Positions 10,533 to 28,418 of a DNA stretch of 37,320 bases are shown in pieces (position 1 is the stretch's first letter; each line of letters starts with the position of its first letter). A model generated the notes under the pieces. That model did no database searches. It saw only the letters and a list, made by a program, of their open reading frames with translations, and was not told the origin of the DNA. The stretch spans positions 1 to 37,320 of the forward strand of contig CANCQX010000012.1 in the NCBI GenBank assembly GCA_947380375.1. The letters run 5' to 3'. This DNA comes from Flavobacteriales bacterium. Its GTDB lineage: Bacteria > Bacteroidota > Bacteroidia > Flavobacteriales_D > Crocinitomicaceae. The position numbers and the translations under genes are program-made.

Positions 10533-10620
10533 GGAGAGATGGCAGAGCGGTTGAATGCACCGGTCTTGAAAACCGGCGTACCGTGAGGTATCGGGGGTTC
10601 GAATCCCTCTCTCTCCGCCA
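10533..10620 (+). tRNA. tRNA-Ser (anticodon UGA)
   Basis: The 88-nt cloverleaf has acceptor stem GGAGAGA / TCTCTCC, discriminator G and an encoded CCA at 10618-10620. The anticodon stem CCGGT / ACCGG (10560-10564 / 10572-10576) holds the loop CTTGAAA with anticodon TGA at 10567-10569, which reads UCA and related serine codons. A long variable arm and the GGTTCGAATCC T arm are present, as required for a class II serine tRNA. It has its own promoter and terminator and is not part of a tRNA cluster. Confidence 0.97.
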
Positions 10621-24068: not shown

Positions 24069-24683
24069 TTAAAATAATCCATTAATTTCAGCATCAATCG
24101 AATTAATGATTTTACCCAAATCCTCTTGACTTTCAGGAAAACGATTATTATCAATATCAATAATCAACAACTTTCCTTTATCATAAGTTGAAATCCATGC
24201 CTCGTAACGCTCATTTAACCTTTTCAAGTAATCTAAACGAATACTTTCTTCATATTCGCGACCTCTTTGCTGAATTTGATTGACCAAAGTTGGAACACTA
24301 GCTCTTAAATAAATCAATAAATCTGGTGCTGAAACAAAAGAATCCATCAAATTAAATAATGAAAAATAATTTTCGAAATCACGAGTAGTCATCAACCCCA
24401 TTGAATGGAGATTTGGAGCAAAAATAAAAGCATCTTCGTAAATTGTACGATCTTGAATAACACTTTTTTCAGTTTGCTTAATTTCTTGAATCTGAGTAAA
24501 TCGACTGTTTAAATAATAAATCTGAAGATTGAAAGACCATCTTTGCATTTCTTCATAAAAATCATTCAAATATGGATTTTGTTCTACATCTTCAAGATGA
24601 GTGTCCCAACCGTAATGCTTTGCTAATAAATTTGTTAGCGTAGTTTTACCTGAACCAATATTTCCTGCTACTGCGATATGCAT
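24069..24683 (-). CDS. Deoxynucleoside kinase
   Basis: This 204-aa kinase phosphorylates deoxynucleosides for nucleotide salvage in the cytosol. It has the P-loop GNIGSGKTT (7-15), the ED of HLEDVEQNPYLNDFY, WSFNLQIYYLNSRF (substrate pocket), the DRTIYEDAFIF motif (equivalent to DRS) and the LID arginines in QRGREYE. This pattern fits the dCK/dGK/dNK family rather than thymidine kinase. Base specificity cannot be read. It is followed by hldD after 82 nt and preceded by the GH3-linked gene by 75 nt, all on the minus strand. Confidence 0.9.
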   Translation of the reverse strand: MHIAVAGNIGSGKTTLTNLLAKHYGWDTHLEDVEQNPYLNDFYEEMQRWSFNLQIYYLNSRFTQIQEIKQTEKSVIQDRTIYEDAFIFAPNLHSMGLMTTRDFENYFSLFNLMDSFVSAPDLLIYLRASVPTLVNQIQQRGREYEESIRLDYLKRLNERYEAWISTYDKGKLLIIDIDNNRFPESQEDLGKIINSIDAEINGLF

Positions 24684-24758
24684 ATCTTATAAATTTCTAT
24701 CTGAATGCATCTTGCAAACAGGGTTACTAAATTACAAATTTTGAATAACTATACAAGT

Positions 24759-25604
24759 TTATTTATTTAAAAGAAGGTGGTATTTTTTAATTTCTTTACC
24801 TGTTCTAAAATAATAATTATTTCCAATTTTTTTAAATTCAATAATTTTTTGAATTGGAGCATCAATATTTATTTCTTCATTGGAATCAACATCAATCAAA
24901 ACGATCTTATTTTTTTCTAGGATATAAAAATTTTCTGAGTCAACTTGAAAGCTTTTTATAGTTGGACGTTTTATAAAATTGACAAGGGAAGCATACCTAT
25001 CAAGAATATATATTCCTTGATTGTAATCAACTAAATACAAAAAATTATTTTGTTCAAACATGAATGAAATCTGAATAGAATTCAAGACTCCTTTTATATT
25101 CTCTACATCCTGATTTTGAAATAATTGCCTAGAAGAGATTAAATGTAATCGTGAATTTAATTGGTCATAAATCCAAAATTTATCTGGCTGTGATGAAACA
25201 GCAAATTTTGTAGCATTTCCAATATTCTCATCGTCAAAATTTACGCATGATTCATATGGTGTCAAAGTATTATCTAAAAAACATAATTGTTGTTGTTCTT
25301 CAGAAAAGACAATAAGTTTCATCGAGTTTAGAACCTGAATAGAAGATAATCTTCCGAATGATTTTTGACTTTGAGAAAATTTAAAATTTCCAATTGAATC
25401 AAATTTTTGAATTAGTTCCTTTTTAGAAATATAAACATTACCCAAAACATCTACAGTCCAAATATCATTTGAATCAATTTTATAGTTAGATTTTTCAATC
25501 CATTCATATTTCGACTGAGAAACAGATGAAAAACAAAGATGAATAAATAATAAATTTAATACTAATTTCAATTTATTTTGATTTAATTTCATAATATTAT
25601 TCAT
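24759..25604 (-). CDS. Exported protein paired with GH3, possibly propeller-like
   Basis: This 281-aa protein has an N-terminal signal (hydrophobic LVLNLLFIHLCFSSVSQ, cleavage near residue 30). The body repeats short strand patterns such as IWTVDVLGNVYIS, FWIYDQLNSRLHLIS, FLYLVDYNQGIYILDRY and NFYILEKNKIVLIDVD, spaced 40-60 residues apart, which suggests a beta-propeller (inference from pattern). The called start overlaps the GH3 stop by 8 bp. An in-frame ATG at residue 5 (25592) would avoid the overlap. The pair is probably one transcript. No family name is recognised. Confidence 0.75.
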   Translation of the reverse strand: MNNIMKLNQNKLKLVLNLLFIHLCFSSVSQSKYEWIEKSNYKIDSNDIWTVDVLGNVYISKKELIQKFDSIGNFKFSQSQKSFGRLSSIQVLNSMKLIVFSEEQQQLCFLDNTLTPYESCVNFDDENIGNATKFAVSSQPDKFWIYDQLNSRLHLISSRQLFQNQDVENIKGVLNSIQISFMFEQNNFLYLVDYNQGIYILDRYASLVNFIKRPTIKSFQVDSENFYILEKNKIVLIDVDSNEEINIDAPIQKIIEFKKIGNNYYFRTGKEIKKYHLLLNK

Positions 25605-27111
25605 TCGAAAAACTTAAAATTTGCTCTAAATATCCCCTATTATTAGATAATCTCGGAACTTTGTTTTGACCTCCTAGCTTACCTTTCGACTTCAACCACT
25701 TATCAAAAACACCATTCTCTAAAACGGTAATTTTTAATAAATCTAAAACCATATTTTTAGTTCTTTTAGCATCATAGTCAGAATTAATTCTTCGTAATGA
25801 ATCATCGAGTAGACTTGCGAATAATTCGATATCATCAGGAGGAGTTATAAATTCAATCAACCATTCGTGTCTTCCTCTTGAATTTTTATCCATATAAATT
25901 GGACAAGCGGTATAATCTCTTATTTGAGAATGTGTTAATTTACAAACTTCAGTAACTGCTTTTTCGGTATTATCAACAATAATTTCTTCACCAAACGCAT
26001 TAATAAAACTTTTTGTACGTCCCGTTATACTAATTCTAAATGGTTTTAAGGAAGTGAATTTGACAGTGTCACCAATAATATATCTCCACAAACCAGCATT
26101 TGTAGAAATTACGATAGCATAATTTTCATTTAGTACTACCTCTGATAAATTATAAATTAGAGTTGAATTTTTACCCGAGAATGAAGACATTGGAATAAAT
26201 TCATAAAAAATACCATAATCTAACATTAATAATAAATCATTTGATTCTTTATTATCTTGTATCGCAAAAAATCCTTCTGATGCATTATAAGATTCGAAAT
26301 AATTCATTGAAGAACAAGGTATTAATTTCCTAAACTCATCACGATAAGGATCAAAATTAACCCCTCCATGCATGTATAACTCTAAATTTGGCCAAACTTC
26401 TTTTAAATTTTCTTTTCCTGTAATTTGAAGAATTTTATTGGCTAGTACTAAAGTCCAACTTGGCACACCAACTAAAATACGAACATCTTCTTTTATTGTA
26501 TTAAGAGCTATTTTTTCAATTTTTTCTTCCCACTCATCCATTAAAGCTATTTCTTTGGATGGAATTCTTTTTATTTCAGCCCACCAAGGCAAAGTTTTCA
26601 TTATAATTGCAGACAAATCTCCTAAATAGGATTTTTTTGACAAACTGTTTAATTCCGCGCTGCCTCCTATTACTAGATGCTTTCCGCTATATAATTTTCC
26701 ATTTGGATAATTTTGGTAATAAAGTGCTAAAAGATCTTTACCTCCTTTTTGATGACAATCTTCCAATGCTTCTTTGGTGACAGGTATTAACTTACTTCTT
26801 TCAGAGGTAGTCCCAGAAGATTTTGCGAAAAATTTTGTTTCAGTAGGCCATAATAAATTTTGTTCTCCTTTAATCAATCTATCAACCCATGGCTTAATAT
26901 CATCATATTCTTGCAAAGGAACCATCATCCTAAAATCTTGATACTCTTTAATATCAATAAAATGATTTTTCTTTCCCCAAACTGTTTGTGATGCTTTTTT
27001 AATTAACTTATTTAATGTCTCATTTTGAACTTCCAACGGATATTCTCGAAAAGAATCTATCTGAAGAATTCGTTTCTTTATTAACCAAGAAAAAATGGTA
27101 TTAAAAGGCAT
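25597..27111 (-). CDS. GH3-family acyl-acid-amido synthetase-like enzyme
   Basis: This 504-aa protein resembles plant GH3 proteins, ATP-dependent ligases of the ANL type that join carboxylic acids to amino acids through an acyl-adenylate. It has the ATP motif AKSSGTTSERSK (96-107), YMHGGVNFDPYR, the second adenylate motif YFESYNASEG (271-280), and WRYIIGDTVKF in place of the Y-R-x-GD motif. The C-terminal domain has RGRHEWLIEF. Bacterial members are common in Bacteroidota, but their substrates are mostly unknown. It shares an overlap with the downstream exported protein. No promoter box was recognised upstream. Confidence 0.88.
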   Translation of the reverse strand: MPFNTIFSWLIKKRILQIDSFREYPLEVQNETLNKLIKKASQTVWGKKNHFIDIKEYQDFRMMVPLQEYDDIKPWVDRLIKGEQNLLWPTETKFFAKSSGTTSERSKLIPVTKEALEDCHQKGGKDLLALYYQNYPNGKLYSGKHLVIGGSAELNSLSKKSYLGDLSAIIMKTLPWWAEIKRIPSKEIALMDEWEEKIEKIALNTIKEDVRILVGVPSWTLVLANKILQITGKENLKEVWPNLELYMHGGVNFDPYRDEFRKLIPCSSMNYFESYNASEGFFAIQDNKESNDLLLMLDYGIFYEFIPMSSFSGKNSTLIYNLSEVVLNENYAIVISTNAGLWRYIIGDTVKFTSLKPFRISITGRTKSFINAFGEEIIVDNTEKAVTEVCKLTHSQIRDYTACPIYMDKNSRGRHEWLIEFITPPDDIELFASLLDDSLRRINSDYDAKRTKNMVLDLLKITVLENGVFDKWLKSKGKLGGQNKVPRLSNNRGYLEQILSFSNE

Positions 27112-27172: not shown

Positions 27173-27205
27173 CAAAAAAGTCCTATCCAAATTTGGACAG
27201 GACTT
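27173..27205 (-). terminator. Terminator of the 32-codon membrane peptide gene
   Basis: Fourteen base pairs with one mismatch form between AAGTCCTATCCAAA (27178-27191) and TTTGGACAGGACTT (27192-27205). On the minus strand it is followed by a T-rich run (complement of 27173-27178 and beyond). It lies 26 nt past the stop of the small gene. Confidence 0.75.
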
Positions 27206-27231
27206 ACTAAATTTAAATTTTCAAATAGATT

Positions 27232-27330
27232 TTAACCCCAAATTAAAAGAGAAGCTAAAATACCCAAAACAATTACCGTATAAATAGTAGCAACTGCTGC
27301 TGTTGAACCTTCGAAGAAATTATCTGACAT
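27232..27330 (-). CDS. 32-codon single-pass membrane peptide
   Basis: An unlisted short frame reads ATG at 27330 to TAA at 27232 on the minus strand. The peptide begins MSDNFFEGSTAAVATIY and then has a clean hydrophobic helix (TVIVLGILASLLIWG) to the end, about 20 residues long. It has no basic signal start, so it looks like a small bitopic membrane protein rather than a leader. A TAAATTTG box (27352-27345) ends 14 nt before the ATG and a strong terminator follows 26 nt after the stop, so it has its own transcription unit between the MORN and GH3 genes. No family is recognised; an oxidase accessory subunit or a regulatory peptide are guesses. Confidence 0.7.
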   Translation of the reverse strand: MSDNFFEGSTAAVATIYTVIVLGILASLLIWG

Positions 27331-27344
27331 ATCGTTTTTTTTAT

Positions 27345-27352
27345 CAAATTTA
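27345..27352 (-). promoter_or_regulatory. Putative -7 box of the small membrane peptide gene
   Basis: The minus strand reads TAAATTTG, 14 nt before the ATG at 27330. A TTG is present 23 nt further upstream, at the outer limit of accepted spacing. Confidence 0.5.
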
Positions 27353-27389: not shown

Positions 27390-28418
27390 TTATTTGTTTT
27401 TTTTCTTTTTCTTCTTTTTTCCTGACATTACATCATCGTCTTCTTTATCAGAATCCTTTCCTTCTGGGGCACCAAAAGAATATGTTTCTCTTTCATGCTC
27501 ATCATATTTATATTCTTCAACAATAATTCCCTTTTTAAAAATAGTTTTATGCTTTAATTTTTTATCAGCATAAAACTCTTCAGCTACACCTTCTTTTTTA
27601 CCTTTTTTATAGGTTTCATGATCTTGAATAAAACCTCCGTAATAAAATGTTTTAAATTCTCCTTCTTTTACATCTAATTTCCAATGCTCAGTTCTTAACA
27701 ATGTTCCATCATCGTAAAAATATTTAAATTCTCCATCTTTTTTACCCATTTTATAAAACATATCTTGTATTACAATACCTTTCTCGTTGAAAGCTTTATA
27801 AGTACCATCCAAAAATCCATTTGAATAATTTACCTCCTTCTGAATTTTTGATTTTAAATAGGGGTGATATGTTTTTTGTAATCCATGAAGCAATCCATTA
27901 TTATAATTCTCCCAAAGTGTTGTATCTCCTTTTTTTGTAAAAAAAATACTTTTACCATGCTGAACGCCAACAAAATAATTCATTTCCCATGCCATTTGAG
28001 CTGTAGTATCATAATAGTAGATCCATTGTCCACTTCTTACACCTTGAATATGCGCTCTAATAACTTGAATACAGCCTGTTTGATATGTTGTTGTATCAAC
28101 ACCATCTTCTTTTCCATTTACAAATGAAACGGTCCTTTCAAGTAATCCATTGTTATGACATGTTTCACATTTACCATTAAAAGGACTTCCATCAATCCCT
28201 GCAAGAAATGTATTATTATCCTGATTATAAGATAGTTTCTCATTACAATCTACTGTTCCAGCTCTTTTTCCACATTCCCATTCAGCATACTTTACATTCT
28301 TTTTGCGAAGAGATGATTTTTCAGTACAATCTTTCTTCTTAATAGCTCCTATTTGCCCAAAAATGGAAGGACTAAAAACAATTAAACAGAAAAAAAATAT
28401 TACTTTAAATTTTAACAT
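27390..28418 (-). CDS. Exported MORN/YwqK-repeat protein with poly-lysine tail
   Basis: This 342-aa protein has a signal peptide (1-21, ending SPSIFGQ) and a chain of MORN-like repeats from about residue 75: for example NGKEDGVDTTTYQTG, GVQHGKSIFFTKKGD, NGFLDGTYKAFNEKG, GKKDGEFKYFYDDG and GKKEGVAEEFYADKK. Such YwqK-type proteins are usually outer-membrane-associated or secreted and of unknown role; the common label antitoxin is not supported here. The N-terminal part has six cysteines between 11 and 87, including a CETCH string at 84-88. The last 16 residues are an acidic then strongly basic tail (DDDV, then K7 NK), encoded by a poly-T/poly-C stretch that could be slippage-prone. Confidence 0.82.
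   Translation of the reverse strand: MLKFKVIFFFCLIVFSPSIFGQIGAIKKKDCTEKSSLRKKNVKYAEWECGKRAGTVDCNEKLSYNQDNNTFLAGIDGSPFNGKCETCHNNGLLERTVSFVNGKEDGVDTTTYQTGCIQVIRAHIQGVRSGQWIYYYDTTAQMAWEMNYFVGVQHGKSIFFTKKGDTTLWENYNNGLLHGLQKTYHPYLKSKIQKEVNYSNGFLDGTYKAFNEKGIVIQDMFYKMGKKDGEFKYFYDDGTLLRTEHWKLDVKEGEFKTFYYGGFIQDHETYKKGKKEGVAEEFYADKKLKHKTIFKKGIIVEEYKYDEHERETYSFGAPEGKDSDKEDDDVMSGKKKKKKKNK

Follow-up and report, generated by a model that had tools for sequence, protein, structure and literature searches.

Does a 32-codon reading frame in a member of the order Flavobacteriales encode a working protein, and if so, what would such a small protein do? The question is raised by the minus strand of a 37,320-nucleotide stretch of DNA, analysed as a whole and referred to here as the window. 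The initial annotation had placed the frame at 27330-27232, and on re-reading the sequence these coordinates hold—the frame starts with an ATG at 27330 and has 32 codons before a TAA stop at 27234-27232. The encoded peptide, MSDNFFEGSTAAVATIYTVIVLGILASLLIWG, opens with about ten polar residues (MSDNFFEGST) and is hydrophobic from there to its last residue; the polar head described earlier is thus present, but it makes up nearer one third of the 32 residues than the half first proposed. A single hydrophobic helix running to the C-terminus had also been suggested, and in an AlphaFold2 model (which carries no partner information) the peptide forms one helix over residues 2-31, with a pLDDT of 91.7. 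A longer frame with a TTG start (27378, 48 aa) was considered and set aside; it would have to read across the promoter box, and the relatives do not conserve it. The features discussed in the text are collected in Table 1.

Table 1. Features of the window at and around the short frame, with the basis on which each is placed.
Feature	Coordinates	Strand	Basis
Single-helix (one-pass) membrane microprotein gene, 32 codons	27232..27330 (including stop codon)	minus	Frame, homologues, codon-level tests
Predicted -7 promoter element TAAATTTG, fitting TAHHTTTG	27345..27352	minus	Sequence and consensus
Short A-rich stretch ataaaaaaaacgat, mostly predicted leader	27331..27344	minus	Lies between box and ATG
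Predicted intrinsic terminator (hairpin, 27205-27178; T run, 27179-27174)	27174..27205	minus	Inverted repeat, folding
GH3-type acyl-acid-amido synthetase gene, downstream neighbour past the terminator	25597..27111	minus	Pfam PF03321/PF23571/PF23572
MORN-repeat-like protein gene, upstream neighbour	27390..28418	minus	PF07661, 29.5 bits (cut-off 29.6)

That the frame is a chance ORF is ruled out by conservation within the genus, purifying selection, and broken alternative frames. The peptide is found in 11/11 other genomes of the same genus, with a best E of 4.3e-10 or better in each. Between the window and its nearest relative all 32 residues are identical (dN 0), while dS is 0.99, a value at which synonymous sites are near saturation. 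More broadly, the median omega is 0.18 over the 1016 computable of 1375 pairs (the other 359 being undefined or saturated), differences fall on the three codon positions in the ratio 11903 : 7322 : 23711, and the +1 and +2 forward frames are each interrupted by stops in 52/53 sequences, the window included. The check named in the initial annotation—a conserved peptide with synonymous-biased change—is therefore strongly borne out, and from these comparisons it is nearly certain that the 27330-27232 frame is a genuine protein-coding small gene under strong purifying selection.

The wider family was described from 138 distinct loci, 137 of which gave the peptide (L227 gave none, and L057, which duplicated L026, was left out). 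Peptides are 31-49 residues long, with 32 residues in 94/137, and the variable part is the polar head, which is His-rich in some loci; an in-frame ATG is found in 137/137, partly by construction, as the start was chosen as a Met near the profile start. An acidic segment, [FY]F[ED]xST, precedes a single stretch without charges, which is as long as a helix and has Gly as its C-terminal residue. Among 123 aligned distinct sequences F6 occurs in 123/123, position 10 is T in 116 and position 32 is G in 118, and the C-terminus reads [WF]G in 128/137 loci. In 125 distinct peptides the 20 C-terminal positions are free of D, E, K, and R (0/2500), as expected of an uncharged helix of membrane length; the mean net peptide charge is -1.9. 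When the conservation of helix positions was tested for periodicity on one face, the result was not significant (p 0.18) and thus does not demonstrate a packing face. A few points concern how the alignments were made: some rows of alignment A1 begin with the first aligned residue instead of the Met, for profile A3 any peptide of more than 34 aa was trimmed to its last 34, and A4 includes one row (G433) with a weak search score of its own (E 0.03).

How widely the peptide is distributed depends on the search that is used. With the single peptide, matches are found in 36/59 relatives at E<=10 and in 148/299 genomes of the order at E<=1; the window genome is counted in both, and in each the weakest matches are due to chance. 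Profile A3, at E<=0.01, matches 155/299 genomes of the order. By family—tallies for f1, f3, f13, and f11 were compiled by hand from the profile-search listings—these include 114/117 genomes of the window's own family, f1 (inferred to be Crocinitomicaceae), window included and with G196, G259, and G277 as the absences, as well as 32/39 in f3, 6/6 in f13, and 1/1 in f11; the rest of the order adds two weak matches (G044, E 0.007; G178, E 0.002). Nearly every matching genome has one match, G027 having a second, partial one at a contig end, and the record for Crocinitomix algicola also carries the peptide. Against 395 phylum-wide genomes the same profile gave 3 matches; only the window and G032, both from the window's own family, are convincing, and the match in G958, a stretch inside a 241-aa frame, is taken as chance. 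On sequence, this is a normally single-copy gene for a conserved one-pass microprotein, near-universal in its family.

Small proteins of this kind are known, but the present one is not covered by the family libraries. The window peptide has 0 family matches in Pfam, NCBIfam, and PHROGs. Its relatives give scattered weak matches in Pfam (45 members, best E 0.056), a best E of 0.0052 in NCBIfam (in 1/123 members), and a best E of 0.015 in PHROG (9/45 members), to a PHROG family without function. No convincing relative was found in the PDB by phmmer or profile, where three single matches (E 9.7, 0.58, and 2.9) are helix-only; those to SdhC (E 9.7) and PsaM (E 2.9) were rejected as helix-only similarity, and that at E 0.58 is a weak, 15-residue profile match of the peptide family to yeast Sbh1, a likeness to Sec61-beta. 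Sec61-beta is tail-anchored, with a single helix near the C-terminus. Membership in its family (PF03911) was nonetheless rejected: in the window genome there is no match at the peptide locus, and the sole match lies elsewhere and is weak (15.1 bits against a cut-off of 27).

A further comparison is with CydX and KdpF, small single-pass subunits of respiratory and transport complexes that pack by their helix on a larger membrane complex, stabilising or tuning it. Like these and CcoQ, the peptide is conserved, about 30-50 residues long, and has one transmembrane helix; it may likewise act as an accessory part. Unlike them, it is without a consistent Pfam or NCBIfam model, and no oxidase or transporter gene is recognised alongside it, though in 63/137 loci the upstream gene was assigned to none of the five families sought. 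CydX, KdpF, and CcoQ are named as small membrane subunits in PMC10903887, and GMSC is presented as a small-protein catalogue with clusters in PMC11364881. A literature search of partial coverage on small proteins in Crocinitomicaceae, or on small open reading frames in Fluviicola, found none. On sequence grounds, then, the peptide is a new family of a known kind of protein, as judged against the Pfam and NCBIfam models.

The gene comes with predicted signals of its own. The box noted earlier spans 27352-27345 and is separated from the ATG by 14 nt. In Flavobacterium johnsoniae the refined -7 element is TAHHTTTG, and promoters in which it lies 4-5 nt from the transcription start are deemed probable (PMC6847099). 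Given the position of the box and a spacing of 4-5 nt, the transcript is predicted to start at about 27339-27340, with a leader of about ten A-rich bases. The box is a feature of the family as a whole: TAnnTTTG occurs within 60 nt upstream in 112/137 loci, compared with a Markov-shuffle mean of 6.8 and maximum of 15 (200 runs), and it ends 13-19 nt before the ATG in 103 of the 112. Many loci lacking the exact motif show a near-match, such as TATTTTTA, as judged by eye, and A is found at -10 to -13 in 81-96% of the 137 loci. A TTG at the spacing searched for the -33 element is found in only 31/106 unique promoters, so no conserved -33 box is claimed.

Downstream, the terminator hairpin begins 26 nt after the stop, as first described. 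The inverted repeat, AAGTCCTGTCCAAATTTGGATAGGACTT, has 14-nt arms with one G.T; folded as RNA it gives 12 pairs, a 4-nt loop, and -17.8 kcal/mol, and it runs into Ts. Under a loose hairpin-plus-T rule, a terminator-like structure lies 3' of the peptide gene in 12/12 loci of the window's genus and in 64/137 loci overall, a count that may include chance structures or ones within the GH3 gene. The description of the gene as free-standing holds in the window's genus. Elsewhere the peptide often lies 16-42 nt upstream of a GH3 gene; this gap is seen in 21/55 loci (a subset), and 0/21 of these have a terminator by the loose rule. This distribution of terminators makes the unit look independent in the window's genus and perhaps co-transcribed with the next gene in others.

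The gene downstream is the most constant element of the neighbourhood. In 122 of the 137 loci, spread over four families of the order, it is a GH3-type gene; in 14 it is DUF4290 (PF14123), followed in L280 by an EPSP-synthase-family, MurA-like gene, and in 1 it is lost at a contig end. This order raises the possibility that the peptide recruits or regulates the adjacent GH3-type acyl-acid-amido synthetase at the membrane, the expected site of its fatty-acyl substrate and N-acyl amino-acid product. The short gaps described above fit such a partnership, and GH3 is present in every genome where the peptide was matched (155/155); within family f3, 32/32 genomes with GH3 carry the peptide, against 0/7 of those without. 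Also in favour is OlsH, a GH3-like enzyme that makes lyso-ornithine lipid in a planctomycete (PMC12493201). The neighbouring GH3 protein scores 399.5 bits to the OlsH equivalog NF052613, below the cut-off of 620, and is an enzyme related to the OlsH lyso-ornithine-lipid synthetase, possibly differing from it in specificity.

The converse linkage is far from constant, as GH3 is present in 289/299 genomes of the order and 134 of those have no peptide match; upstream of GH3 in 20 loci from genomes without a convincing peptide match, nothing similar to the peptide was found. Where the peptide precedes DUF4290, the GH3 locus is without it in 9/9 cases (one GH3 locus per genome, in 9 of the 14 genomes). 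The co-absence of GH3 and peptide in f3 is confounded, because physically linked genes can be lost together from fragmented or incomplete assemblies; a deoxynucleoside kinase search in nine f3 genomes found, in genus g53, close relatives of the kinase with no GH3 within ~1.5 kb.

The gene order around GH3 is also older than its association with the peptide. In the window, GH3 heads a block with a 281-aa protein (no Pfam match) and a deoxynucleoside kinase (24069-27111, minus strand), and this block is conserved well beyond Crocinitomicaceae: in 80 named GH3 loci the kinase lies downstream of GH3 in 33/80 and the 281-aa protein in 23/80. The named loci (L078-L157) were counted apart from the set of 137, and the kinase and 281-aa counts are lower bounds, some loci ending early. 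The peptide is immediately upstream of GH3 in 16/80; among these the kinase is found in at least 11/16 and the 281-aa protein in at least 14/16, and the block also exists without the peptide (kinase in at least 22/64, 281-aa protein in at least 9/64). Since GH3 - 281-aa - kinase is an old block, adjacency to GH3 is partly inherited gene order; together with the peptides kept away from GH3, this makes the conserved adjacency weak evidence for a partnership, and we regard a GH3 partner as unlikely.

As an aside on these records, metagenome-assembled genomes titled Candidatus Planktophila lacus (L097), Bifidobacterium breve (L104), and Chryseobacterium gleum (L081) carry Bacteroidota-type GH3 loci; a Crocinitomicaceae-type peptide is present in L097 and L081, and the titles of all three look mislabelled.

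The short gaps to GH3 without a terminator, found at many loci, could also be read in another way, with translation of the short frame controlling the GH3 operon in cis and the peptide itself being discarded. A leader of this sort would hardly account for amino-acid constraint over the whole frame, the helix end included, for the placement of the gene upstream of DUF4290 in 14 loci, or for the terminator that separates peptide from GH3 in the window's genus; we consider it highly improbable.

Upstream neighbours are more varied. A relative of the MORN-like gene lies upstream in 12 loci of the window's genus, and in 63/137 loci the upstream gene matches none of five sought families within 260 nt. 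Elsewhere a Bax1-I/BI-1 gene (PF01027) lies upstream on the same strand, at most 1.2 kb away, in 66/137 loci (e.g., L018, L031, L025), from two families of the order, and Zn_peptidase_2 (PF04298) lies within the same distance in 11/137, in 8 of them together with BI-1; the order BI-1 - peptide - GH3 is seen in families f1 and f13. YccA is linked to FtsH, and these neighbours have led us to consider that the peptide regulates membrane-protein quality control with an upstream BI-1/YccA-type protein and the Zn_peptidase_2 membrane protease. The association fails in several places, however—the window genome has its BI-1 gene on a different contig, and BI-1 is upstream in 0/11 f3 loci and 0/14 loci of the DUF4290 context (some of these stretches being short)—and a role in quality control appears improbable.

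A short hydrophobic peptide with its own predicted promoter and terminator also resembles a toxin-like or secreted signalling peptide, such as a type I toxin, a bacteriocin, or a pheromone precursor. Several observations speak against such an identity: the gene is near-universal in its family, with one copy in nearly every genome, the peptide is constrained to its last residue, and the identified neighbours are ordinary chromosomal genes. Searches of reference families agree, in that at gathering scores the window has a single Rfam match, a tRNA at 10533, and none near the peptide gene, and the PHROG matches are the weak ones given above. A toxin or signal is accordingly a very improbable identity for the peptide.

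Beyond the order, following up a weak match at class level brought to light another conserved microprotein, of about 39 residues, in family f17. It is found in 7/60 genomes around and including G545 (E 8e-8 or better) and is of tail-anchored type, with a YEDGGAV motif and an ending that is mostly LIFG (L296-L302); its pattern can be written as M..DD..PEAPYEDGGAVNFSVVYIIAV..FIASILIFG. It shares layout and length class with the window peptide but differs in its head motif (YEDGGAV versus FFExSTAA in the window's family) and in its neighbours—the end of the f17 gene faces the end of an opposite-strand frame of about 315 aa, at 28 nt in L296 and 13 nt in L301. Aligned by hhalign, the f17 profile and A3 give a probability of 96.5% over the full length with a score of 39.6, where 60 column shuffles reached at most 21.5, a hint that the two types belong to a hidden superfamily of look-alikes in the class Bacteroidia.

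Further candidates came from profile A5, a combination of the two types with rows from G320 and G433 already in it. Run against 178 class genomes, it matched 82 at E<=1; the bulk of the matches fall in long frames or are short stretches, and these were put down to chance. Previously unseen short frames with the same layout stand out in G395 (f56, E 2e-7) and G342 (f41, 8e-7), and also in G400 and G364 (f17, 3e-4 and 0.005) and G337 (f36, 0.016). At loci L308, L309, L310, L311, L315, and L317 (from f19, f56, f41, f17, and f36) short frames encode a helix ending in FG, WG, LG, or CG behind an acidic or His-rich head (L310 being without a His-rich head), in several gene contexts; other loci (L059, L060, L064, L238, L312, L316, L320, and L328) looked like chance matches. 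The proposed superfamily signature would combine an acidic or His-rich head with an [FY][ED]xxx / DGGA motif and a helix that has FG or WG at its end. The match between the two profiles is short and transmembrane-biased, convergence is possible in short transmembrane sequences, and the candidates were picked by inspection among weak matches of the class search, so class-wide relatives are a lead rather than a result. It is possible, if doubtful, that the peptide is a branch of an undescribed class-wide tail-anchored superfamily and, as such, a conserved but overlooked subunit of some core machine in the inner membrane of Bacteroidia.

What role, then, would best suit the peptide? The initial annotation held that a role could not be chosen from sequence, and the comparative context does not fix the partner either. 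By analogy with known small subunits, we put at roughly one half the probability that it crosses the membrane once and serves, in trans, as an accessory subunit of a larger inner-membrane complex. The microprotein would be expressed constitutively from its own predicted promoter. As the helix is complete only when translation ends at the last codon, insertion would have to be largely post-translational, and after release the peptide would enter the inner membrane as a C-tail-anchored one-pass protein. We infer that the peptide is anchored by its tail and that its head lies in the cytoplasm; the positive-inside rule does not settle the matter, as positive charges are so few. The helix would then pack against a larger inner-membrane complex and stabilise or tune it, as CydX or KdpF do, and, with action in trans, the partner's gene need not adjoin that of the peptide.

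The loci at which the peptide precedes DUF4290, in genomes whose examined GH3 loci are without it, count for action in trans. An accessory subunit would also be consistent with the varied upstream neighbours and with the other contexts in which its probable distant relatives in Bacteroidia sit. Set against it are the non-significant periodicity along the helix, the lack of a convincing relative in the PDB searches, the lack of an oxidase or transporter gene among the neighbours identified, and the frequent adjacency to GH3 (122/137 loci), which could mean a functional link to that enzyme instead.

A gene that is kept in 114/117 genomes of its family, without a Pfam or NCBIfam model, probably has an important job that the family libraries have overlooked. 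The peptide lends itself readily to testing in relatives that can be cultured. Should the class-wide link hold, it could point to a component of a core Bacteroidia membrane machine that has gone unrecognised.
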